Below are positions 24,328-36,744 of a stretch of 64,000 bases of DNA, piece after piece (the first letter of the stretch is position 1; every line of letters starts with the position of its first letter). Where the stretch lies: contig JAHEYP010000005.1 in assembly GCA_023251535.1 (NCBI GenBank), positions 62,001 through 126,000 on the forward strand. The letters run 5' to 3'. The notes beneath the pieces were generated by a model. The model did no database searches and was not told the DNA's origin. It saw only the letters and a list, made by a program, of their open reading frames with translations. The position numbers and the translations under genes are program-made. Source of the DNA: Bacteroidota bacterium. Lineage in GTDB: Bacteria > Bacteroidota > Bacteroidia > AKYH767-A > OLB10.

Positions 24328-25377
24328 CTATTTACTCTTCTTAACCGAAAACGAGAAGGTAGTTCCTTTGCCTACTTCACTTGTAACACTAATATACTGA
24401 TGATGAGCTTCGATAATATGCTTCACGATAGCCAATCCTAGTCCTGTGCCTCCTTGCTCGCGAGAGCGACTTTTGTCGACACGATAAAAACGTTCAAACA
24501 ATCGAGGAAGGTGATGCTTCTCTATTCCTATTCCATTATCTTCAACATCAACAATTATTTTGTCATCTCCATCGGCATAACGAATGACTGTTTGTCCACC
24601 CTCTTTTCCATATTTAATGGAATTCACCATTAGGTTCACCAAAACCTGACGAATCAAATCACGGTCACCAAAAACATATTGTGGTTTATCTAAATCAGCC
24701 TTAAGAACAAGATCAACTTTCTTTTCTTTAGCTTGCAATTCCAAAGACTCAATAACATCCTTTGTTAAATCAAGAATATCGAAAGTACGCATCTCAACGA
24801 TTAACTCACCAGCTTCTAATTTTGATATAGATTCTAAGTCGTCAACCATTGCAATTAATCGGTCGATACTTTTACTTGCCTTATTCAGATAAAGAATGTT
24901 CACATCAGCATCATCAATACCTCCATCAATTAAAGTATGCACATAACCTTGCGCAGAAAAAATTGGAGTTTTTAGTTCATGAGAAACATTACTCAAAAAC
25001 TCACGACGATAAACTTCAACTTGCTTTAACTGATCAATTTCTTCTCGCGACTCGTTACTCCAGTCAACTAGAATTCGATTAATTTCAGATGTAATATCTC
25101 TTTCTTTTTCTTCAAAAGCTCGAATGGGCTCATTCGGATTCTTTAAACGAATGATATGCTTGTAAATTTGATAGAGATTTGAAAATATGTATTTACCATA
25201 CAATACTCTAAATGTCAAACCACAAACAGTAAAAACAATTAAAAACGAAACTAAATAAAAATATCCTGGAGGATCAACTTTGGCGATTGACAACATAACA
25301 AACTCCAATAATGTCAGCACTGCTGCCATCACTATTGAAGTAATTAATGCTATTTGAGTAGGATTGACTCGTTTCAT
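24328..25377 (-). CDS. phoR: Sensor histidine kinase, PhoR-like
   Basis: Two TM helices, H-box SHELKTPIFSAQGY, N/G boxes NLMVNSIKYG, GGTGLGLAIVKHI; paired with phoB in a phosphate locus. Confidence 0.88.
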   Translation of the reverse strand: MKRVNPTQIALITSIVMAAVLTLLEFVMLSIAKVDPPGYFYLVSFLIVFTVCGLTFRVLYGKYIFSNLYQIYKHIIRLKNPNEPIRAFEEKERDITSEINRILVDWSNESREEIDQLKQVEVYRREFLSNVSHELKTPIFSAQGYVHTLIDGGIDDADVNILYLNKASKSIDRLIAMVDDLESISKLEAGELIVEMRTFDILDLTKDVIESLELQAKEKKVDLVLKADLDKPQYVFGDRDLIRQVLVNLMVNSIKYGKEGGQTVIRYADGDDKIIVDVEDNGIGIEKHHLPRLFERFYRVDKSRSREQGGTGLGLAIVKHIIEAHHQYISVTSEVGKGTTFSFSVKKSK

Positions 25378-25421: not shown

Positions 25422-26108
25422 TTACATATCGAACTTGTACCCAATTCCCTTAATAGTTTTAATGGAATCGTCGCCTAGCTTTTCACGAATTTTGCGAATA
25501 TGAACATCGATGGTACGATCACCTACGATAATATCGGTTCCCCATACTCTCGACAATATATCTTCACGCGTAAAAACTTTTCCCGGTTTAGAAGTTAGTA
25601 ATGAAAGTAATTCAAATTCTTTTCTAGGTAATGAAATTGCCTCTTCGCCTCTATACACTAAATAGCTTTCACGATCAATCTTTAGATTTCCGATTTGCAC
25701 CGTTGAAGATGCTACCGGCGCACTTCCATTCGACCTACGTAAAAGAGCCTTTATTCTGCTAATCATGATTCTTGGCTTGATAGGTTTGCTGATATAATCA
25801 TCTGCCCCTACATCAAATCCTGCTAGTTGCGAATACTCTTCGTTACGTGCTGTTAAAAAAGTAATAATTGTATGCTCTAATTCAGGTAAATCACGCATTG
25901 TTCTGCATGCTTCAATACCATCCATTACTGGCATCATAATATCAAGAATTACTAACTGCGGCTTCTCTCGTTTGGCAATATCAACAGCTTCTCTACCATT
26001 CTTAGCTAACAAAACATTGTAGCCTTCTTTCTTCAAATTGTAGTCCATGAACTCCAGAATATCCGGTTCATCATCTACTAACAAAATTTTTATTGTTGAA
26101 TTGTCCAT
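25422..26108 (-). CDS. phoB: OmpR/PhoB-family response regulator
   Basis: Receiver LVDDEPDILEF...LDIMMPVMDG and winged-helix C-term TREDILSRVWGTDIIVGDRTIDVHIRKIREKLGDD. Confidence 0.9.
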   Translation of the reverse strand: MDNSTIKILLVDDEPDILEFMDYNLKKEGYNVLLAKNGREAVDIAKREKPQLVILDIMMPVMDGIEACRTMRDLPELEHTIITFLTARNEEYSQLAGFDVGADDYISKPIKPRIMISRIKALLRRSNGSAPVASSTVQIGNLKIDRESYLVYRGEEAISLPRKEFELLSLLTSKPGKVFTREDILSRVWGTDIIVGDRTIDVHIRKIREKLGDDSIKTIKGIGYKFDM

Positions 26109-26125: not shown

Positions 26126-26172
26126 TCCAAAGATCGATACCGTGTATTACCAAATTGTTAATTGTGGATTAA
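26126..26172 (-). promoter_or_regulatory. Candidate PhoB box array and -7-like element upstream of phoB
   Basis: Minus-strand TTAATCC (26172-26166), TTAACAA (26161-26155), GTAATAC (26150-26144) at 11-bp period; CTTTGGA at 26132-26126. Confidence 0.5.
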
Positions 26173-26275
26173 GCGATTCATATTTTTTCTGAAATCACAA
26201 TAAGAACTTCCGATTTTAAGTGGTACAAAGATACATCGAATAGGATCATATTGGGTTATCATTAGATTAACCTAC

Positions 26276-26333
26276 TTAACATTTTCATAAAGTTACTTTA
26301 ATACTGAATTAGGATTACAATATGTCCTTTGCA
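26276..26333 (+). promoter_or_regulatory. Candidate PhoB box array and -7-like element upstream of the TonB receptor
   Basis: TTAACAT 26276, ATAAAGT 26287, TTAATAC 26298 (11-bp period), CTTTGCA 26327. Confidence 0.55.
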
Positions 26334-26350
26334 TTGGAAATCAGAAACTA

Positions 26351-29161
26351 ATGAAAAAGCACATTATCTTTACCTTAATTATTTGTTTAACAAGTATTTA
26401 CAATTTGTTAGCACAATCGGGAAGTATCGAAGGAATACTGACTGACAGCCAAACTGCAGAAACATTAATTGGCGCCAATGTTATTATCAAAGGTACTACG
26501 TCAGGTTCAGTAACCGATATTGACGGGAAGTACTTAATCTCCAATTTAAAACCTGGCTCTTACTCTTTAATCGTTTCTTATGTTGGTTATACGAACCAAA
26601 CATTTGATGCAATTTCAGTATCTGAAGGCAAAAAAACAACTTTAGACATTAAACTGCAATCAAACGTTAAGCAATTAAAGGAAGCTAATGTTAGTACTAC
26701 ACGCATTACTCATACCGAGAATGCTGTATTAGCAGAAATGCGAAAGGCTGAACAGGTTGTTGTTGGAGTATCAAGTCAACAAATTGGCAAAACACAAGAT
26801 AAAAACGCGACTGAAGTAATCCGACGTTTACCTGGTGTTACAGTGATCGAAGATCGCTTTATCATGATTCGTGGACTAAGCGAGCGTTATAATGCTGTTC
26901 TTTTGAATGATGCATTAGCTCCTAGTGTTGAATCTGATAAAAAAGCTTTCTCATTCGACTTAATCCCTAGTAATATGATAGATCGTATCTTGATTTACAA
27001 ATCAGGAGCACCTGAACTTCCCGGTGAATTTGCTGGAGGTGCGATTAAAATTTACACTAAGAATTTCCCAGATAAAGATTTTATTACTGCAGGATATACC
27101 ATCGGAGTACGATCGGGAACTACCTTCAACGATTTCTATCAATCGGCCGGAAAATCGAACGACTGGATGGGAATCGACAACGGCAGCAGAGACTTGCCTG
27201 ATTGGTTTCCTTCAAGTATTTCAGGATTAAATACTGATCAACAAGTGGCTTTGGCTAAAGATCTACCAAACACATGGATTGCGAAACAAAAATCGGCTCC
27301 AATCGATCAGAAATTCAATTTCGGATTTGCTAAATCATTTTCGATTGGCAAAATTAAAGCTGCGAATATTACGAATATCAATTACTCGACTTCTTACGAA
27401 AATCGCGAGGCTCAAAACTACAACTACAATCAGTATAATATTGAGCAACAAAAAAGCGATACTATCTACTCTTATAACGATAACACTTACTCAAAGAAAA
27501 TCAATTGGAGCATAATGCATAATTGGGCTTTTCAGTTGTCGTCAAAAACAAAAATCGAGTTTAGAAATTTATTTAATCAAACAGGGAATAATAGCACTGC
27601 TATTCGTACTGGCGAAAACTTTGAAGAAGGCAACTTGGTTCGAAATTATGCTTTCCGTTATAACGAGAGAAGTATTTACTCTGGACAACTTTCTGGATCG
27701 CATCACTTAAATCAAGAAAGAACTAAAATCAACTGGAATTTAGGTTATTCACTTACAAGAAGCAAAGAACCTGATTACAGAAGATTACGTACGTTCAACT
27801 CAATCTACGATACAGATACTTCATATGTAGTTCAAATCAACACCACAGCTTCACAACAAGATGCAGGAAGATTTTACTCTAAATTGAATGAAGATATTGG
27901 AATGGCATCAGCAGATTTAGAACAAGATATTTACTCAATTAACGAAGTAAGAAAGATAAAATTAAAAGCAGGATTTTATGCTGAATCAAAAACAAGATCT
28001 TTCAGTGCAAGATGGATGTCGTATAAAAGAGCAAGCTTCGATAATTTCGATTATTCATTACTATACCTACCTGTTGACCAAGTATTCTCTTCTGAAAATA
28101 TCAACGATAGCACAGGATTTAAAATCGACGAAGGAACAAATGCTACTGACAAATACACTGCTGATAATTTCTTAACAGCAGGATACGTAAGTATCAGCTG
28201 GCCAATATCGGATAAGTTAAACGCAAGCGGTGGTGTTCGTGTAGAAAACAACCAACAACATTTAAGTTCTAAAAACAATAACGGAAATAAAATCGAAGTA
28301 GATAATCCTACAACGAAAGTATTACCATCACTTAATGTTTCATATAACTTAACATCGAAATCACTCGTACGTTTGGCATATGCAAGAACGTTAAATCGTC
28401 CTGAATTCAGAGAGCTAGCTCCTTACGCTTATTACGATTTCATCTTCAATAATGTATTGAAAGGGAATACTGAATTAAAGACTCCAGATATCGATAATTT
28501 AGATGCACGTTGGGAGTTTTATCCTGGAATCGGAGAATTAATTTCAGCTGGTGTATTTTACAAATTTTTCACTAATCCAATAGAGCAATACTTCGAACCT
28601 GGTGCAGGATCAGGTGGAACAAGAAATTTCATTTACAATAATGCGCAGAAAGCTACCAGCTACGGAGTAGAACTTGATATCAAGAAATCTCTTGAGCCAA
28701 TCTTTAAAACAGGATTCCTAAGCAAGCTTGCTATTGGAGCGAACACCTCTTTAATAAAAAGCAATGTTGATTTAGGTGATCAAGCAGTTGGACAAAAAAG
28801 CAATCGTCCGATGATGGGACAATCGCCTTACACAATCAATGCAGGCCTGTACTACGCTAACGAAGAAAACGGATTGCAATGCAATTTACTATACAATATT
28901 GTAGGGAAAAGAGTTTATGCAGTTGGAACAGTAGGAACACCTGATGTTTATGAACTTTCAAGAAATTCAATCGACTTCTCTATCTCTAAAAAATTAGGAA
29001 AATTTGTAGAAGTAAAAGCCGGAGCACAAGACATTTTAAACGAAGCATTCCGTTTAAAACAAGACTCAAATGAAGATGGAACTATCAATGGTGCTGATGA
29101 AACAATAATGAGTTACAAACGAGGAAGTTTGTTCTCACTTGGTTTCTCTGTCAAATATTAA
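26351..29161 (+). CDS. TonB-dependent outer membrane receptor with carboxypeptidase-regulatory-like N-terminal domain
   Basis: SGSIEGILTDSQTAETLIGANVIIKGTTSGSVTDIDGKYLI; plug domain ATEVIRRLPGVTVIEDRFIMIRGLSERYNAVLLND; C-term beta-barrel ending FSLGFSVKY. Confidence 0.93.
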   Translation: MKKHIIFTLIICLTSIYNLLAQSGSIEGILTDSQTAETLIGANVIIKGTTSGSVTDIDGKYLISNLKPGSYSLIVSYVGYTNQTFDAISVSEGKKTTLDIKLQSNVKQLKEANVSTTRITHTENAVLAEMRKAEQVVVGVSSQQIGKTQDKNATEVIRRLPGVTVIEDRFIMIRGLSERYNAVLLNDALAPSVESDKKAFSFDLIPSNMIDRILIYKSGAPELPGEFAGGAIKIYTKNFPDKDFITAGYTIGVRSGTTFNDFYQSAGKSNDWMGIDNGSRDLPDWFPSSISGLNTDQQVALAKDLPNTWIAKQKSAPIDQKFNFGFAKSFSIGKIKAANITNINYSTSYENREAQNYNYNQYNIEQQKSDTIYSYNDNTYSKKINWSIMHNWAFQLSSKTKIEFRNLFNQTGNNSTAIRTGENFEEGNLVRNYAFRYNERSIYSGQLSGSHHLNQERTKINWNLGYSLTRSKEPDYRRLRTFNSIYDTDTSYVVQINTTASQQDAGRFYSKLNEDIGMASADLEQDIYSINEVRKIKLKAGFYAESKTRSFSARWMSYKRASFDNFDYSLLYLPVDQVFSSENINDSTGFKIDEGTNATDKYTADNFLTAGYVSISWPISDKLNASGGVRVENNQQHLSSKNNNGNKIEVDNPTTKVLPSLNVSYNLTSKSLVRLAYARTLNRPEFRELAPYAYYDFIFNNVLKGNTELKTPDIDNLDARWEFYPGIGELISAGVFYKFFTNPIEQYFEPGAGSGGTRNFIYNNAQKATSYGVELDIKKSLEPIFKTGFLSKLAIGANTSLIKSNVDLGDQAVGQKSNRPMMGQSPYTINAGLYYANEENGLQCNLLYNIVGKRVYAVGTVGTPDVYELSRNSIDFSISKKLGKFVEVKAGAQDILNEAFRLKQDSNEDGTINGADETIMSYKRGSLFSLGFSVKY

Positions 29162-29180
29162 TGAGACAATAAATTAATGT

Positions 29181-29210
29181 AAAGGCGAATGAAATTCATT
29201 CGCCTTTTTT
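29181..29210. terminator. Rho-independent terminator after the TonB receptor
   Basis: AAAGGCGAATG-AAATT-CATTCGCCTTTTTT. Confidence 0.88.
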
Positions 29211-29215
29211 CATTC

Positions 29216-29273
29216 TTAACAATTCGTTTAAGAATCATTAACAATCCTATGATATTGTAATATTAATCTTGCA
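29216..29273 (+). promoter_or_regulatory. Candidate PhoB box array and -7-like element upstream of the lipoprotein gene
   Basis: TTAACAA 29216, TTTAAGA 29227, TTAACAA 29238 (11-bp period), TCTTGCA 29267. Confidence 0.55.
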
Positions 29274-29300
29274 CTATCAGAAACAACAAAAAACTAATTC

Positions 29301-30659
29301 ATGAAATCATTTAATTTCAGAAAAACAATTACTGCATTATCTATCGCAGTTATTGCAACTTCCACAGTATTCACAGGATGTAAAAAAGACAGTGAAGACA
29401 CTACTACTCCTACTCAAACTGGACAAGAGATCACAGTTCAAGACAGTATCACTGCAAACACTACTTGGACAGCAAACAACAAATACATTTTAAATGGATT
29501 TGTTTACGTAACTAACGGAGCAACGTTAACAATTGAAGCCGGAACAATCATCAAAGGAGATAAAACCTCTAAAGGAACTTTAATTATCAAACGTGGTGCT
29601 AAAATTATGGCAACAGGAACTGCGTCGAACCCAATTGTATTTACATCTGCACAAGCTAAAGGTTCACGTGCTCCTGGTGATTGGGGTGGTGTTATCGTTT
29701 GCGGTAAAGCACCAGTTAATTTAGCAGGTGGAGAAGGACTAATTGAAGGTGGTCCGGATGCATATTATGGCGGAACAGACGCTGCTGACAACTCAGGAAA
29801 AATTCAATATGTACGTATCGAATTCGCTGGTGTGGCTCTTCAACCAAATCAAGAAATCAACGGCTTAACACTTGGTGGTGTTGGTAACGGAACAACAATT
29901 GATCACGTTCAAGTTTCTTATGGTGGAGATGATGCATTTGAAATGTTCGGAGGAACAGTTAACATGAATCACTTAGTTACTTTTAAAACAACAGATGATG
30001 ATTTAGATACTGACAACGGATTTAGCGGTAAAGTTCAATTCGCAGCAATCTTACGTGATCCAAACATCGCTGACGTTTCAGGATCAAATGCATTCGAATC
30101 AGATAACGATGCTTCTGGAACAACTGCAACGCCTTATACAAATCCGGTATTTTGCAATATCAGCGTATTCGGACCAAAATCAGATACTGCTAATGCTGTA
30201 AACGGAAACTTTAAACGTGGTGCTCATATCCGCAGAAGCTCAAAAGCTTGCATTTATAATTCACTTATCAGCGGTTTCCCTATCGGATTACTAGTTGACG
30301 GTGCAAATGCGGAATCAAATGCAAGTAATGATGCATTACAAATCAGAAATACTATCATCTCAGGTTGCAACACTCCATTAGCTGTTGCCTCAGGAAGCAC
30401 TTTCGATATCACAACTTGGTTCAACAATGCAGCTTATGGCAATTCAATCCAGTATTCAAACTCGAACTTGGCGAACGATCCTTATAACTTAACAAGCCCT
30501 GATTTCTTACCAAAAACGGGTTCTCCACTACTTTCTGGAGCTAATTTTAGCGCTTCGAACCTATCTGGATTAACAATTACAACATATAGAGGTGCTTTCA
30601 GCACTACTAACTGGACTTCAGGATGGGCAAATTTTGACCCACAAAACACTGACTATTAA
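29301..30659 (+). CDS. Lipoprotein with right-handed beta-helix-like repeats, function unknown
   Basis: Lipobox TVFTGC; LTIEAGTIIKGDKTSKGTLIIKRGAKIMATGTASNPIVFTSAQAKGSRAPGDWGGVIVCGKAPVN; between a TonB receptor and a phosphate-type porin. Confidence 0.85.
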   Translation: MKSFNFRKTITALSIAVIATSTVFTGCKKDSEDTTTPTQTGQEITVQDSITANTTWTANNKYILNGFVYVTNGATLTIEAGTIIKGDKTSKGTLIIKRGAKIMATGTASNPIVFTSAQAKGSRAPGDWGGVIVCGKAPVNLAGGEGLIEGGPDAYYGGTDAADNSGKIQYVRIEFAGVALQPNQEINGLTLGGVGNGTTIDHVQVSYGGDDAFEMFGGTVNMNHLVTFKTTDDDLDTDNGFSGKVQFAAILRDPNIADVSGSNAFESDNDASGTTATPYTNPVFCNISVFGPKSDTANAVNGNFKRGAHIRRSSKACIYNSLISGFPIGLLVDGANAESNASNDALQIRNTIISGCNTPLAVASGSTFDITTWFNNAAYGNSIQYSNSNLANDPYNLTSPDFLPKTGSPLLSGANFSASNLSGLTITTYRGAFSTTNWTSGWANFDPQNTDY

Positions 30660-30684
30660 TTATTTCTGCTTTTATTCCAAAATC

Positions 30685-30713
30685 GGCCTCCCAACTAGGG
30701 AGGCCTTTTTTTT
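30685..30713 (+). terminator. Rho-independent terminator
   Basis: GGCCTCCC-AACTA-GGGAGGCC followed by TTTTTTTT. Confidence 0.9.
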
Positions 30714-30717
30714 GCAC

Positions 30718-30775
30718 TTAACATTAACTTAACATTGGCATAAAATACCCTTAACAATTTCTTAATCGCTTTGCA
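30718..30775 (+). promoter_or_regulatory. Candidate PhoB box array and -7-like element upstream of the porin-pst operon
   Basis: TTAACAT 30718, TTAACAT 30729, ATAAAAT 30740, TTAACAA 30751, TTAATCG 30762: five heptamers at exact 11-bp period; CTTTGCA 30769. Confidence 0.65.
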
Positions 30776-30794: not shown

Positions 30795-32255
30795 ATGCAC
30801 AAATCAATCCTAACCTCAGCCAAAGTAATCCTTGTATTCGTGGCTGCCATGTTCACGCTGAATGCGCAAGCTCAGCAGACAGACTCTACTCAAACAGACA
30901 CTACTGTTGTAGAAGAGTCATCAGAAGCAACTAGTTCATTTTCAACATTCGAACTAGAACCTGAAGACACTACCCAACAAACAATTGGAAAGATGTACAA
31001 CGACATCGAATTCCTGAAGAGATTCCAGATTTCAGGATATTTCCAAGGACAGTTTCAATGGGCTGACTCATCAGGAATAGCTTCAGCGTCAGGTGGTAAT
31101 TTTAGCCCAGGGATTGACAAACGTTTCAGTGTTAGACGTGGTCGTTTAAAAGTTACTTACGATAAATATTTCAGCAAAGTCGTTTTCCAAACCGACATGA
31201 CCGAAAGAGGTCTTCGTGTAGTTGAAGCTTATGCAAGTATTACTGAAGAAAAATTCTATTGGGCAACATTAACGGCAGGTATTTTCAACCGACCGTTTGG
31301 ATATGAAATCGAATACACTTCGAATATGAGAGAGGCCCCTGAAAGAGGTCGCATGTCGGGAAATTTATTCCCAAATGAACGAGATTTAGGAGCAAAAGTC
31401 ACCATTCAAGGTCCGAAATTCGGAATCTGGAATTGGCTAAAATTAGATGTTGCAATGGTAACGGGAGTTGGTTCAGAAGATGCAAACGTTGGTATTTCTG
31501 ACTATGACAAAAGAAAAGATTTAATCACTCACTTAACGGTAAACCGTGCTAACAGAAACGAAGATATTAAATACGGATTTGGAGTATCATATTATGATGG
31601 TGGTGTGATTTTCAATATCGACTCAACAAAAAAAGTGGCATCATATGTGCTTAACGAAGATAGCGCAGGTATAAAAACATTCCATGTAGACTCTGTAGCT
31701 CCTGATAGTTATGCACCAAGAAAATATTACGGCATCGATGCTCAATTCCAAAAAGACTTTAAATGGGGGATTTTCACTTTGAAAGCTGAATATATTCAAG
31801 GTACTCATTCAAGCCAAGGTTCTACAACAAAAGCATACCAATCTAAACCAACTGCATCAAATCCTGTGTACATCAGAAAATTCAATGGAGCGTACTTTGA
31901 ATTAGCACAAAACTTTAACCGACCAACTTCAGAAAACAAATTCTTGAATACTATTTACTCCATTATCCCAGGACAAATAGTTGTTAAATACGACTGGTAT
32001 GACCCAAATACAGAAGTTAAAGGAGATGAAATCGGAAAGAATGTAACATCAGGAGCCACAGGAAGAAAAACTACTAATGCTACCGATTTAAGATATGACA
32101 CCTTCGGATTTGGAGTAGCATACTTCTTAAGTAATAATGCAAAAGTGCTTGCTTATTATGACATGGTTACGAATGAAACATCTAAAAACTTAAGCGGATA
32201 CACGCAAGATTTAAAAGACAATGTATTCACATTACGTCTTCAATATAAATTCTAA
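30795..32255 (+). CDS. Phosphate-selective porin O/P-like outer membrane protein
   Basis: Signal peptide, RFQISGYFQGQFQWAD...RFSVRRGRLKVTYDKYFSKVVFQTDMTERGLRVVEAYASI; C-terminal aromatic LRLQYKF. Confidence 0.87.
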   Translation: MHKSILTSAKVILVFVAAMFTLNAQAQQTDSTQTDTTVVEESSEATSSFSTFELEPEDTTQQTIGKMYNDIEFLKRFQISGYFQGQFQWADSSGIASASGGNFSPGIDKRFSVRRGRLKVTYDKYFSKVVFQTDMTERGLRVVEAYASITEEKFYWATLTAGIFNRPFGYEIEYTSNMREAPERGRMSGNLFPNERDLGAKVTIQGPKFGIWNWLKLDVAMVTGVGSEDANVGISDYDKRKDLITHLTVNRANRNEDIKYGFGVSYYDGGVIFNIDSTKKVASYVLNEDSAGIKTFHVDSVAPDSYAPRKYYGIDAQFQKDFKWGIFTLKAEYIQGTHSSQGSTTKAYQSKPTASNPVYIRKFNGAYFELAQNFNRPTSENKFLNTIYSIIPGQIVVKYDWYDPNTEVKGDEIGKNVTSGATGRKTTNATDLRYDTFGFGVAYFLSNNAKVLAYYDMVTNETSKNLSGYTQDLKDNVFTLRLQYKF

Positions 32256-32274: not shown

Positions 32275-33105
32275 ATGAAAAATATGTTAAATAAAATTCT
32301 TGTTGCCTTGTTAGTTTTATCAAGCAACCTTTCATTCGCTCAAAAAATTGTTATTAAAGGAAGTGACACTGTACTACCTTTAAGTCAAAAAGAAGCAGAA
32401 CAATACATGAAAACCAACAAAAGCGTAAACATTAGCGTTGTTGGTGGTGGATCAGGTGTTGGTATTGCTGCACTTATCGATGGAAATACAAACATCGCAA
32501 TGTCATCACGTCCAATCAAAATGGATGAGAAAATTAAATTACAAGATGCAGGAAGAACTTATAAAGAAGTAAAAGTTGCTTTTGACGCATTAAGTATTAT
32601 CGTTAACCCTTCAAACAAAGTATCTCAATTAACGAGAGAGCAAATTGAAGGAATCTTTACTGGTAAAATTAAAAACTGGAAAGAAGTTGGTGGCGACGAT
32701 TTAAAAATTGTAGCTTATGCAAGAGAGACTTCTTCAGGAACTTATGAGTTCTTCAAAGAACACCTATTAAATAGAAAGAATTATGCTGCATCTTGCCTTA
32801 ATATGCCTGCATCAGGAGCGGTAATCCAATCTGTAAGTCAAACTAAAGGTGCTATCGGATATGTAGGACTAGCTTATGTTGACAAATCAATTAAGACATT
32901 AGGAGTTTCAATTGACAAAGGGAAAACATTTGTAAAACCTTCGAAAGAAACAGCAAAAAACAAAACTTACCCTGTAGTTCGTCCTTTGTTCTTCTACTAC
33001 CCAGTTAAAACTGAAGCATTAGTTAAGCCATTTATTGATTACGTAACTTCTGCGGTAGGACAAAAAATCGTTGACCAAATCGGCTACGTTACATTAGATA
33101 AATAG
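32275..33105 (+). CDS. pstS: Phosphate ABC transporter substrate-binding protein
   Basis: VIKGSDTVLPLSQKEAEQYM, VGGGSGVGIAALIDG, IFTGKIKNWKEVGG, ARETSSGTYEFF; start at MKNMLNK. Confidence 0.95.
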   Translation: MKNMLNKILVALLVLSSNLSFAQKIVIKGSDTVLPLSQKEAEQYMKTNKSVNISVVGGGSGVGIAALIDGNTNIAMSSRPIKMDEKIKLQDAGRTYKEVKVAFDALSIIVNPSNKVSQLTREQIEGIFTGKIKNWKEVGGDDLKIVAYARETSSGTYEFFKEHLLNRKNYAASCLNMPASGAVIQSVSQTKGAIGYVGLAYVDKSIKTLGVSIDKGKTFVKPSKETAKNKTYPVVRPLFFYYPVKTEALVKPFIDYVTSAVGQKIVDQIGYVTLDK

Positions 33106-33176
33106 CCTAAAGAAGGCCATTATACAATTTGATTTGTATTTTTGACCTTATAATAAACATTACTATTTGATTTATT

Positions 33177-34373
33177 GTGATTAAGAAATTCATCAACAAA
33201 CTTATTGAAGGCATTTTAATGCTAAGCAGTACCGTTACTACATTAACGGTACTGCTCATTATTGTCTTTCTTTTCAGCGAAGGAATTTCAGTTTTTAAAG
33301 AATCTCCACTTGAAGGTGATAATATCATAGTACTAAATCACCAAAACAAAGTAAGTCATATCTCATCCACTGATATCAAAGATATCTTTGATCAGGAAAT
33401 TACTAATTGGAAGTCTATTGGAGGCACCGACGACTCCATTATTCTATTCACTTTCAATGATATTGGCAATTACTTTTCAGAAGAAGAACTTGGACCGGAG
33501 TTTGAATACTTGCCTGCTAAAATGGATTCATTAATTGAGGCAGAACATGGAATGATAGCTGTATTTTCAAATAAGTACTTATCTAAAAACCATCATTCCA
33601 AAGTTATTCAGGCCGACAACGTAAATCCTTATACTTTTATCACAGGTAAGGAGTGGTTTCCTACGGCTAACCCTGCCGTTCAACTAGGTGTTCTCCCGTT
33701 AATCTTGGGAACACTTTATGTTTCTTTCGTTGCAATATTATTTGCATTACCTGTAGGATTAGCAACAGCTATTTACATGGCTGAAGTTGCTGATGAGAAA
33801 ACAAGAAGAATATTTAAGCCGGTAATTGAATTATTAGCGGGTATCCCTTCCGTAGTTTATGGATTCTTCGGATTAATAGTTATTGTTCCTTTGATTCAAA
33901 GCACTTTCAATTTACCTGTAGGTGAAACAGGACTAGCGGGAAGTATTATCCTTGGGATAATGGCTCTTCCTACTATCATCACTGTTTCGGAAGATGCTTT
34001 GCGCAACACGCCACGATCAATGAAGGAAGCTAGTCTTGCGCTAGGAGCAACAAAATGGCAAACAATAGTTCGCATAGTAATTCCTTATTCATACTCTGGA
34101 ATTTCTGCAGCTGCAATACTTGGTATCGGTAGAGCGATTGGAGAAACAATGGCCGTACTTATGGTTACCGGTAATGCCGCTGTTATACCGCATACATTAC
34201 TTGAACCAGTGAGAACTATTCCTGCAACTATTGCAGCAGAATTAGGAGAAGCACCGGCTAATGGAATTCATTACAAAGCTTTATTTGCTTTAGGATGTAT
34301 TCTATTCTTAATAACATTAACCATTAATCTTTGGGTTGAATTTAGCTCGAAGAAACGTCGTTTCGGTAAATAA
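33177..34373 (+). CDS. pstC: Phosphate ABC transporter permease PstC with extended periplasmic loop (GTG start)
   Basis: C-terminal permease (LGVLPLILGTLYVSFVAILFALPVGLATAIYMAEVA..., [22 protein letters not shown]); about 100-residue PstS-like insert after TM1. Confidence 0.92.
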   Translation: MIKKFINKLIEGILMLSSTVTTLTVLLIIVFLFSEGISVFKESPLEGDNIIVLNHQNKVSHISSTDIKDIFDQEITNWKSIGGTDDSIILFTFNDIGNYFSEEELGPEFEYLPAKMDSLIEAEHGMIAVFSNKYLSKNHHSKVIQADNVNPYTFITGKEWFPTANPAVQLGVLPLILGTLYVSFVAILFALPVGLATAIYMAEVADEKTRRIFKPVIELLAGIPSVVYGFFGLIVIVPLIQSTFNLPVGETGLAGSIILGIMALPTIITVSEDALRNTPRSMKEASLALGATKWQTIVRIVIPYSYSGISAAAILGIGRAIGETMAVLMVTGNAAVIPHTLLEPVRTIPATIAAELGEAPANGIHYKALFALGCILFLITLTINLWVEFSSKKRRFGK

Positions 34374-34376
34374 CAA

Positions 34377-35249
34377 ATGGAAAAACCTGATATCTCACGT
34401 AAGCGGCTAGCCGAAGCAATAGCATTCTGGATTTTCAGATTGCTATCATTAGGTGTAATGGGAATTTTATTTTCCATCCTCGGATTTATTCTTTACAAAG
34501 GAATTCATGTAGTAAACTGGGATTTCATCACCAAAATGCCGGAAGATGGTATGACAAAAGGTGGAATTTATCCTGCTATCATTGGAACACTTTGCCTGAT
34601 TGCCGGCAGCATGATATTTGCATTCCCTATCGGGGTGATGTCGGGGATTTATATTAACGAGTACACCAAAGATAGTTGGTACCGTCGCTTCGTTCAATTA
34701 ATGACGGCCAATCTCGCGGGTATCCCTTCCATCGTATTTGGTTTATTCGGAATGTCGCTGTTTGTAAACAAACTCGGTTTCGGAGATTCAATTATTGCAG
34801 GATCTTTAACATTAGGATTACTTGCATTGCCTGTTATTATTCGCACTACAGAAGAAGCACTCAAATCAGTTGATGATTCATACCGTCATGCCAGCTTAGC
34901 CCTTGGCGCTACTAAATTGCAAACTATTAGCCGGGTAACTTTACCTGTTGCATTACCGAATATTATCACAGGATTTATTCTAAGTATTGGAAGGGTGTCA
35001 GGTGAAACTGCACCAATCTTATTCACCGTTGCAGCATATTTCCTTCCAAAACTTCCAACAAGTATTCACGATCAAGTAATGGCCTTGCCCTACCACTTAT
35101 ATGTTATTTCTACGAGTGGAACCAACATTAATGAGTCTAGAGGAATGGCTTATGGAACCGCGGTAGTTTTAATATTGATTGTTCTTATTCTGAACCTCAT
35201 CGCCAATGCGGTTCGTAGATATCTTGGCAAAAAGTACAAAACAAATTAA
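34377..35249 (+). CDS. pstA: Phosphate ABC transporter permease PstA
   Basis: [59 protein letters not shown]. Confidence 0.95.
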
Positions 35250-35259
35250 GCATCATAAC

Positions 35260-36012
35260 ATGTTTAAGATAGAGAGTAAAGATGTTCATCTTCATTATGG
35301 CGCCTTTCATGCATTGAAAGGCATCAATATGTCGATCGAAAAAAATACGGTAACTGCGTTAATCGGACCTTCTGGTTGCGGTAAGTCTACATTCCTTCGC
35401 TTATTCAATAGGATGAATGATCTTATTGATGATATTAAGATTGAAGGCCAATGCTTACTCGACGGAAAAGATATCTATAGCAAAGATGTTAAAATCGATG
35501 ATTTAAGAAAGCGCGTAGGAATGGTTTTCCAAAAACCCAACCCATTCCCGAAAACTATTTTCGAAAATGTTGCTTACGGTCTCCGTGTAAACGGAATCAC
35601 TCATAAGTCTTTTATTGAAGAACGCGTTGAACGTTCATTGAAACAGGCTGCACTTTGGGATGAAGTAAAAGATAAATTGAAGAAGTCGGCAATGGCATTA
35701 TCTGGTGGACAGCAACAACGTTTATGTATTGCAAGAGCGTTGGCTATTGAGCCATCTGTATTGCTAATGGATGAACCAGCTTCAGCATTAGACCCGATTT
35801 CTACTGCTAAAATTGAGGAATTGATTTATGAATTAAAGAGTGACTTTACTATTATAATTGTAACTCACAATATGCAACAGGCAGGTCGTATTAGCGATAC
35901 TACCGCATTCTTTTACCTTGGCGAATTAGTTGAAATCGACAGCACTAAAAAGATCTTCACTAATCCTAATGACACTCGAACACAGAACTATATTACAGGT
36001 CGTTTTGGTTGA
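35260..36012 (+). CDS. pstB: Phosphate ABC transporter ATP-binding protein PstB
   Basis: [59 protein letters not shown]; start at MFKIES. Confidence 0.97.
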
Positions 36013-36063
36013 TATGCAACATCAATCAAAAATGTACGTTTAATAGATTAAGAATTTACAACA

Positions 36064-36744
36064 ATGACACACCTCGATAGTGAATTAAAACAATTAAGAA
36101 CGGACTTACTTGACATGTTCGAATTGGTTTTATCACAACTAGATAAATCAAAACAATCATTAATCAACCTCGACAAAGATTTAGCACGCGAGGTATTGGT
36201 GAATGAGAAAAGAGTAAATAGCTACGAGCTGCAAATCGATCGCGATTGCGAAAATATTTTAGCGCTTTTCAACCCCGTTGCTGTTGACTTAAGATTCCTC
36301 TTGGCAGTTCTTAAAATAAACTCTAACCTCGAACGTGTTGGCGATATTGCTGAAAGTGTTTGCCAGTTTGTAATGAACTTCAAACTTGAACCGGAGAAAA
36401 AATTACTTGAAGCTTCTCGCCTTCTTGAAATGTTCGATGTAAGTAAGGAAATCCTTAAAACTGTAAAAGACGCATTCGAACATGAAGACACAAAACTTGC
36501 TAGAAGTGTTTTCACTCAAGATGAAACGCTCGACGAGATCAACATCAACGCACACACTATTATTGCTGATTACATTTTAAATAATAACGACCGAATCAAC
36601 CAGAGTTTGTATACTTTAAGTATGATTCGAAAATTAGAAAGAGTCGGTGATCAATGTAAAAATATCGCTGAAGAAATTATCTTCTACATCGAAGCGAAAG
36701 TTTTAAAGCATAAGTCGTTTCAGCAGAAGCAAGAAACCAAATAA
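36064..36744 (+). CDS. phoU: Phosphate signalling complex protein PhoU
   Basis: Two PhoU three-helix repeats, LRFLLAVLKINSNLERVGDIAE, KLERVGDQCKNIAEEIIFYIEAK. Confidence 0.95.
   Translation: MTHLDSELKQLRTDLLDMFELVLSQLDKSKQSLINLDKDLAREVLVNEKRVNSYELQIDRDCENILALFNPVAVDLRFLLAVLKINSNLERVGDIAESVCQFVMNFKLEPEKKLLEASRLLEMFDVSKEILKTVKDAFEHEDTKLARSVFTQDETLDEININAHTIIADYILNNNDRINQSLYTLSMIRKLERVGDQCKNIAEEIIFYIEAKVLKHKSFQQKQETK

Follow-up and report, generated by a model that had tools for sequence, protein, structure and literature searches.

Four promoters in the phosphate locus of the window (the whole 64,000-nucleotide stretch of DNA analysed here) carry 7 bp direct repeats in fixed slots upstream of a CTTTG-type promoter element. 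These arrays are very probably (about 90%) Bacteroidota-type Pho boxes for phosphorylated PhoB (PhoB-P), which would activate three transcription units and phoBR under phosphate starvation. The proposed binder is encoded in the locus by phoB (25422-26108, minus strand), an OmpR/PhoB-family response regulator gene, followed by the sensor histidine kinase gene phoR (24328-25377, minus strand). The plus strand carries genes for a TonB-dependent receptor (26351-29161), a secreted lipoprotein (29301-30659; same position as FII of Flavobacterium, no Pfam match), an outer-membrane porin-like protein (30795-32255; no Pfam match), which is the first gene of the pst unit, and pstS, pstC, pstA, pstB and phoU (32275-36744; PstSCAB and PhoU by NCBIfam models). 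The porin start is the ATG at 30795, as a TTG start at 30771 would lie in the promoter. Intrinsic terminators on the plus strand separate the receptor gene from the lipoprotein promoter (29181-29207) and the lipoprotein gene from the porin promoter (30685-30705). The TonB-receptor, lipoprotein and porin-pst units therefore each need their own promoter, which explains the presence of three arrays in the same direction in addition to the divergent array of phoB. The regulator has the receiver and winged-helix output domains of a PhoB protein, and is paired with phoR next to the pst genes. Its best NCBIfam matches are PhoB models, but at 215 bits both fall short of the curated cut-offs (296 and 270 bits), so that its identity rests also on context.

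Counted from the C of the CTTTG element, the register consists of four slots spaced 11 bp apart, at -51, -40, -29 and -18, and the arrays are direct repeats of at least two 7 bp units with 4 bp spacers and an 11 bp period, as in Pho boxes. In the TonB-receptor promoter (26276-26315, plus strand) the units are TTAACAT at 26276 (-51), ATAAAGT at 26287 (-40), TTAATAC at 26298 (-29) and a weak TTAGGAT at 26309 (-18). The lipoprotein promoter (29216-29255, plus strand) has TTAACAA at 29216 (-51), TTTAAGA at 29227 (-40), TTAACAA at 29238 (-29) and a weak ATGATAT at 29249 (-18), while the porin-pst promoter (30718-30757, plus strand) has TTAACAT at both 30718 (-51) and 30729 (-40), ATAAAAT at 30740 (-29) and TTAACAA at 30751 (-18). 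The phoB array (26144-26172, minus strand) fills the -40, -29 and -18 slots with TTAATCC (26172-26166), TTAACAA (26161-26155) and GTAATAC (26150-26144).

When the coordinates were rechecked, the 51 bp spacing of the original prediction was exact at all three plus-strand promoters (26276 to CTTTGCA at 26327, 29216 to TCTTGCA at 29267 and 30718 to CTTTGCA at 30769), and the two divergent phoB boxes lay at -40 and -29 from CTTTGGA at 26132, as described. The further boxes proposed at -40 and -29 are present as slots, but their sequences often match TTAACAW poorly (TonB receptor, 4/7 and 5/7; lipoprotein -40, 4/7; porin -29, 5/7). The -18 slot was absent from the original prediction; its strongest box among the four promoters is that of the porin (7/7), and that of phoB matches at 4/7. 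The proposal of an identical register at four starts holds for the 11 bp phase and not for the boxes themselves, phoB having a different set: what the four promoters have in common is the phase relative to the CTTTG element, not one identical set of boxes.

The -7 elements of the window are imperfect versions of the Bacteroidota sigma-A sequence TAnnTTTG, matching at 4-5 of 6 positions. The slot in the TonB-receptor promoter (26324-26331, plus strand) reads GTCCTTTG, with a predicted start at about 26336, and the lipoprotein (TAATCTTG, 29264-29271, plus strand), porin (TCGCTTTG, 30766-30773, plus strand) and phoB (GATCTTTG, 26128-26135, minus strand) elements have predicted starts at about 29276, 30778 and 26123, respectively. 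Since TAnnTTTG occupies -12 to -5 in Flavobacterium psychrophilum (PMC9723704), the slots would lie at about -60, -49, -38 and -27 relative to the start site, and the predicted leaders would be 15-25 nt at all four genes. It is very unlikely that the PhoB sites are real but the TonB-receptor and lipoprotein genes are activated from other start sites, leaving the register only partly functional. The TonB-receptor promoter has a weak -7 element and poor units at -40 and -18, as such a reading would have it, but the slots are those of the strong porin array, the predicted leaders are short throughout, the arrays are conserved in relatives, and the F. johnsoniae orthologues are strongly induced. 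A perfect TAnnTTTG (TATCTTTG) is found further upstream of phoB (26226-26233, minus strand), without good boxes, and is possibly a second, phosphate-independent phoB promoter. A generic sigma-70 scan gave fewer matches than in shuffled sequences, and no Rfam match was found in the window.

The window has a G+C content of 38% and TTAACAW occurs about 50 times, mostly within genes, so the boxes and CTTTG elements might simply have been picked by eye from AT-rich sequence. The original prediction had called for statistical testing on this account. When the window was scanned on both strands and its 1361 TTTG/CTTG sites were ranked by a four-slot TTAACAW score, the four promoters took ranks 1-4, with scores of 26, 22, 21 and 19 of 28, and the next-best site scored 17. 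The summed register score (triple-box) of the four upstream regions was reached in none of 2000 dinucleotide shuffles, contrary to what would be seen if shuffled sequence gave the same register frequently. Three promoters with one exact TTAACAW position in common were also found in none of 2000 shuffles, and in 0.12% of circular shifts. The shuffle test used -7 elements that the earlier reader had chosen, and it was therefore repeated on other genomes. Without a -7 element, the triple-TTAACAW pattern gave matches at the control level. With up to three mismatches, the three-box pattern was likewise at the control level overall (14 vs 15), and its best two matches and one of the next two were known promoters. 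Searched across 24 genomes from the family, the exact three-box pattern matched twice, each time at a pho gene (porin and TonB receptor), with no control matches.

In related genomes, tblastn was used to find orthologues of phoB, the TonB receptor, the lipoprotein, the porin and pstS, the -7 element was picked by a rule blind to the boxes, and a match required at least 6/7 identity to TTAACAW. In 74 promoters of relatives, boxes peaked at -51 (25), -40 (27), -29 (21) and -18 (12), and 88 of 138 box matches fell in a single phase of eleven (that of -51, modulo 11). A second set, made up of named genomes and class-wide loci, had 102 boxes in the four slots, whereas reassigning the -7 positions among the promoters gave an expectation of 11.75 ± 3.93 (maximum 30 in 5000). 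The two sets share some genomes and are not strictly independent, and the loci are related, so the counts are not independent events. The comparison of orthologous promoters nevertheless bears out the slots of the window, and the consensus unit is TTAACAW. The phoB array is kept at the same place before phoB of relatives. In some phoB promoters of the same order (e.g., L020), the boxes seem to be in place and the -7 element reads TTTA or TTTC, not TTTG. The pstC loci across the class mostly lack an operon promoter and were uninformative for the register. The slots of the relatives show the fixed core-promoter spacing of Pho boxes, and their position suggests that the downstream units replace the -33 element.

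Base composition does not account for these results. In loci of at least 48% G+C, the mean four-box score was 14.6 at the register, and none of the other shifts tested exceeded 10.4. Genomes with a G+C content of 55-68%, among them Hymenobacter and Flavobacteriales MAGs, keep TAAC at -50, -39 and often -17 of the TonB-receptor promoter, where the rest of the sequence is GC-rich. The register is not an AT-rich artefact. The slots are also specific to pho genes, with a box in 73 of 156 pho promoters (47%) compared to 12 of 239 non-pho promoters (5%) on the same contigs (Fisher p = 2e-23). About half of the pho-gene promoters of relatives thus have no scoring box in the slots under the blind rule, whether through a wrong choice of -7 element or start, because the genes are internal, or through true absence. 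The shuffles, the ranking within the window, the further loci, the non-pho controls and the high-G+C genomes all reject chance, and an origin by selection from AT-rich sequence is hardly credible.

Relatives carry 49 distinct sites with a score of at least 21, and 42 of these precede homologues of phoB, the TonB receptor, the lipoprotein, the porin or pstS. The arrays are placed, like Pho boxes, at the promoters of phosphate-acquisition genes and of phoB. The other seven lie at a PF07396 phosphate-selective porin, PhoX alkaline phosphatase (two), pstS (one) and PlcP-type loci (three). The last three lie immediately before a locus for a PlcP-type metallophosphoesterase and a glycosyltransferase, two of them in near-identical loci with a short ORF between site and genes. 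In one relative (L043), the PF07396 porin gene has the same array and lies just upstream of pstS, in place of the window porin (30795-32255), suggesting that the porin was swapped while the promoter was kept. Genome-wide scans of the source genome (G000), which were pattern searches, returned the porin and phoB promoters, one array near a histidine kinase gene, a site at C13:35060, and one control match. The C13 array (C13:35060-35114; L095:1501-1555) has four units in register (ATAACAA, TTAACAA, GTGACTA and CTAACAT) and the -7 element TAAAATTG. It lies upstream of a PlcP-type lipid-remodelling operon encoding a PF12850 metallophosphoesterase and a PF13528 glycosyltransferase, with a 46-codon ORF between. 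This operon is likely to be a further Pho member, although the site by itself is suggestive and not proof, given the control match in the scan. In F. johnsoniae, PhoX, PlcP and a phoBR-linked glycosyltransferase are phosphate-induced (PMC8115612).

Two arrays of the source genome (C54:140076-140131, L094, and C46:187994-188039, L092) consist of TTAAC/ATAAC units with an 11 bp period and adjoin histidine kinase genes that are RprX-like by sequence impression. The C54 array is followed by a perfect TAGATTTG, which gives slots at -63, -52, -41 and -30, 1 bp off the Pho register. The kinase-linked arrays possibly belong to another OmpR-family regulator. Because TTAAC arrays occur near these genes, boxes of this type do not belong to PhoB alone, and box sequence by itself is no proof of PhoB. 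One paper on RprY gives no binding motif. That the TTAAC direct repeats are the target of another OmpR/PhoB-family regulator (e.g., RprY-like), which would control the phosphate locus in place of PhoB, is improbable. The kinase-linked arrays lend it some weight, as does head-to-tail binding to direct repeats being common to the family, but throughout the phylum arrays in register cluster at pho genes, including phoB itself, and the C54 array misses the register by about 1 bp when measured from its best -7 element. The phosphate induction of syntenic genes and the binding of PhoB to the pst region in Bacteroides fragilis also fit PhoB. A somewhat broader alternative, still unlikely, is that several OmpR/PhoB-family regulators of Bacteroidota share nearly identical TTAAC arrays of 11 bp period, and that the phase of the array relative to the -7 element, not the box sequence, distinguishes their targets, with PhoB at -51/-40/-29/-18 and the kinase-linked arrays shifted by about 1 bp.

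In the preferred reading, control by PhoB, the phosphorylated protein encoded in the locus would form one or two tandem dimers, bound head-to-tail on 11 bp units with the core TTAACAW (loosely [TGA]TAAYAW) that are locked at the -51, -40, -29 and -18 slots. The downstream units would stand in for the -33 element and set PhoB against RNA polymerase, which would recognise TAnnTTTG. Phosphate starvation would then switch on the TonB-receptor, lipoprotein and porin-pstSCAB-phoU units, and phoBR itself. Recruitment of RNA polymerase by tandem dimers of PhoB-P is most likely, because the slot layout is similar to that of E. coli and the polymerase-contact residues are kept. Residues W184, G185, V190 and D192 of E. 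coli PhoB, implicated in contact with RNA polymerase (PMC3348028), are present as W/G/V/D in the window PhoB and invariant in nine aligned Bacteroidota proteins. In F. johnsoniae, phosphate depletion induces the Fjoh_0545 receptor, the Fjoh_0546 FII lipoprotein and phoB (Fjoh_0544), while the phoBR-linked OprP gene and phoR showed no significant induction, which counts against this explanation (PMC8115612). A single activator held at a fixed position by the polymerase, as originally proposed, remains the best reading of the sequence, the register being conserved and concentrated at pho genes, and the locus having both a PhoB with intact contact residues and phosphate-responsive syntenic counterparts. 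Autoregulation of phoBR is likewise favoured by the conserved array of phoB and by the induction of Fjoh_0544. The start sites, PhoB as the binder here and the contact with polymerase are all predictions from sequence.

The arrays would give Bacteroidota, whose phosphate-starvation genes have so far been known by expression, a concrete Pho box that extends across the phylum and has an exact register. No Pho box consensus or register for the phylum was found in the open-access literature; subscription papers were mostly outside the search, and so priority cannot be claimed. The register flags further members (PhoX, the phosphate-selective porin and PlcP-type lipid remodelling) by sequence alone, making the Pho regulons of uncultured Bacteroidota predictable. 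It also gives a defined set of promoters for studying the contact between a response regulator and a sigma factor specific for TAnnTTTG.

The locus most closely resembles that of F. johnsoniae, where phoBR adjoins a TonB-dependent transporter gene and the FII lipoprotein gene, both induced by phosphate depletion; the terms 'promoter' and 'Pho box' do not occur in the main text of that study (PMC8115612). In B. fragilis, pst expression depends on PhoB, and PhoB binds the pstC promoter region in EMSA; the available portion of that paper describes the shift of a 512 bp fragment, without a defined consensus or register (PMC3547664). The PhoB (SphR) box of Synechocystis consists of three direct repeats in tandem that share a conserved TTAA core, and binding requires every one of them (PMC11126600), but it belongs to another phylum with another core promoter, and the likeness covers the repeats and not the register. 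Pho boxes with 11 bp units are textbook, and the unit sequence differs between species (PMC4415409). Those of E. coli phoA and pstS also have two to four 7 bp units with an 11 bp period, downstream units that overlap the -35 region, and strict spacing to the core promoter (PMC4415409, PMC10294691). Measured from the first base of the promoter element (-10 element in E. coli, TAnnTTTG slot in the window), the four units of E. coli pstS lie at -50, -39, -28 and -17 and those of the window at -48, -37, -26 and -15, i.e., the same layout 2 bp closer to the promoter element. The window unit is TTAACAW in place of CTGTCAT and the core promoter is TAnnTTTG. Given the variation of unit sequence between species, the TTAACAW consensus separates the window box from that of E. 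coli, not from the Pho-box family.
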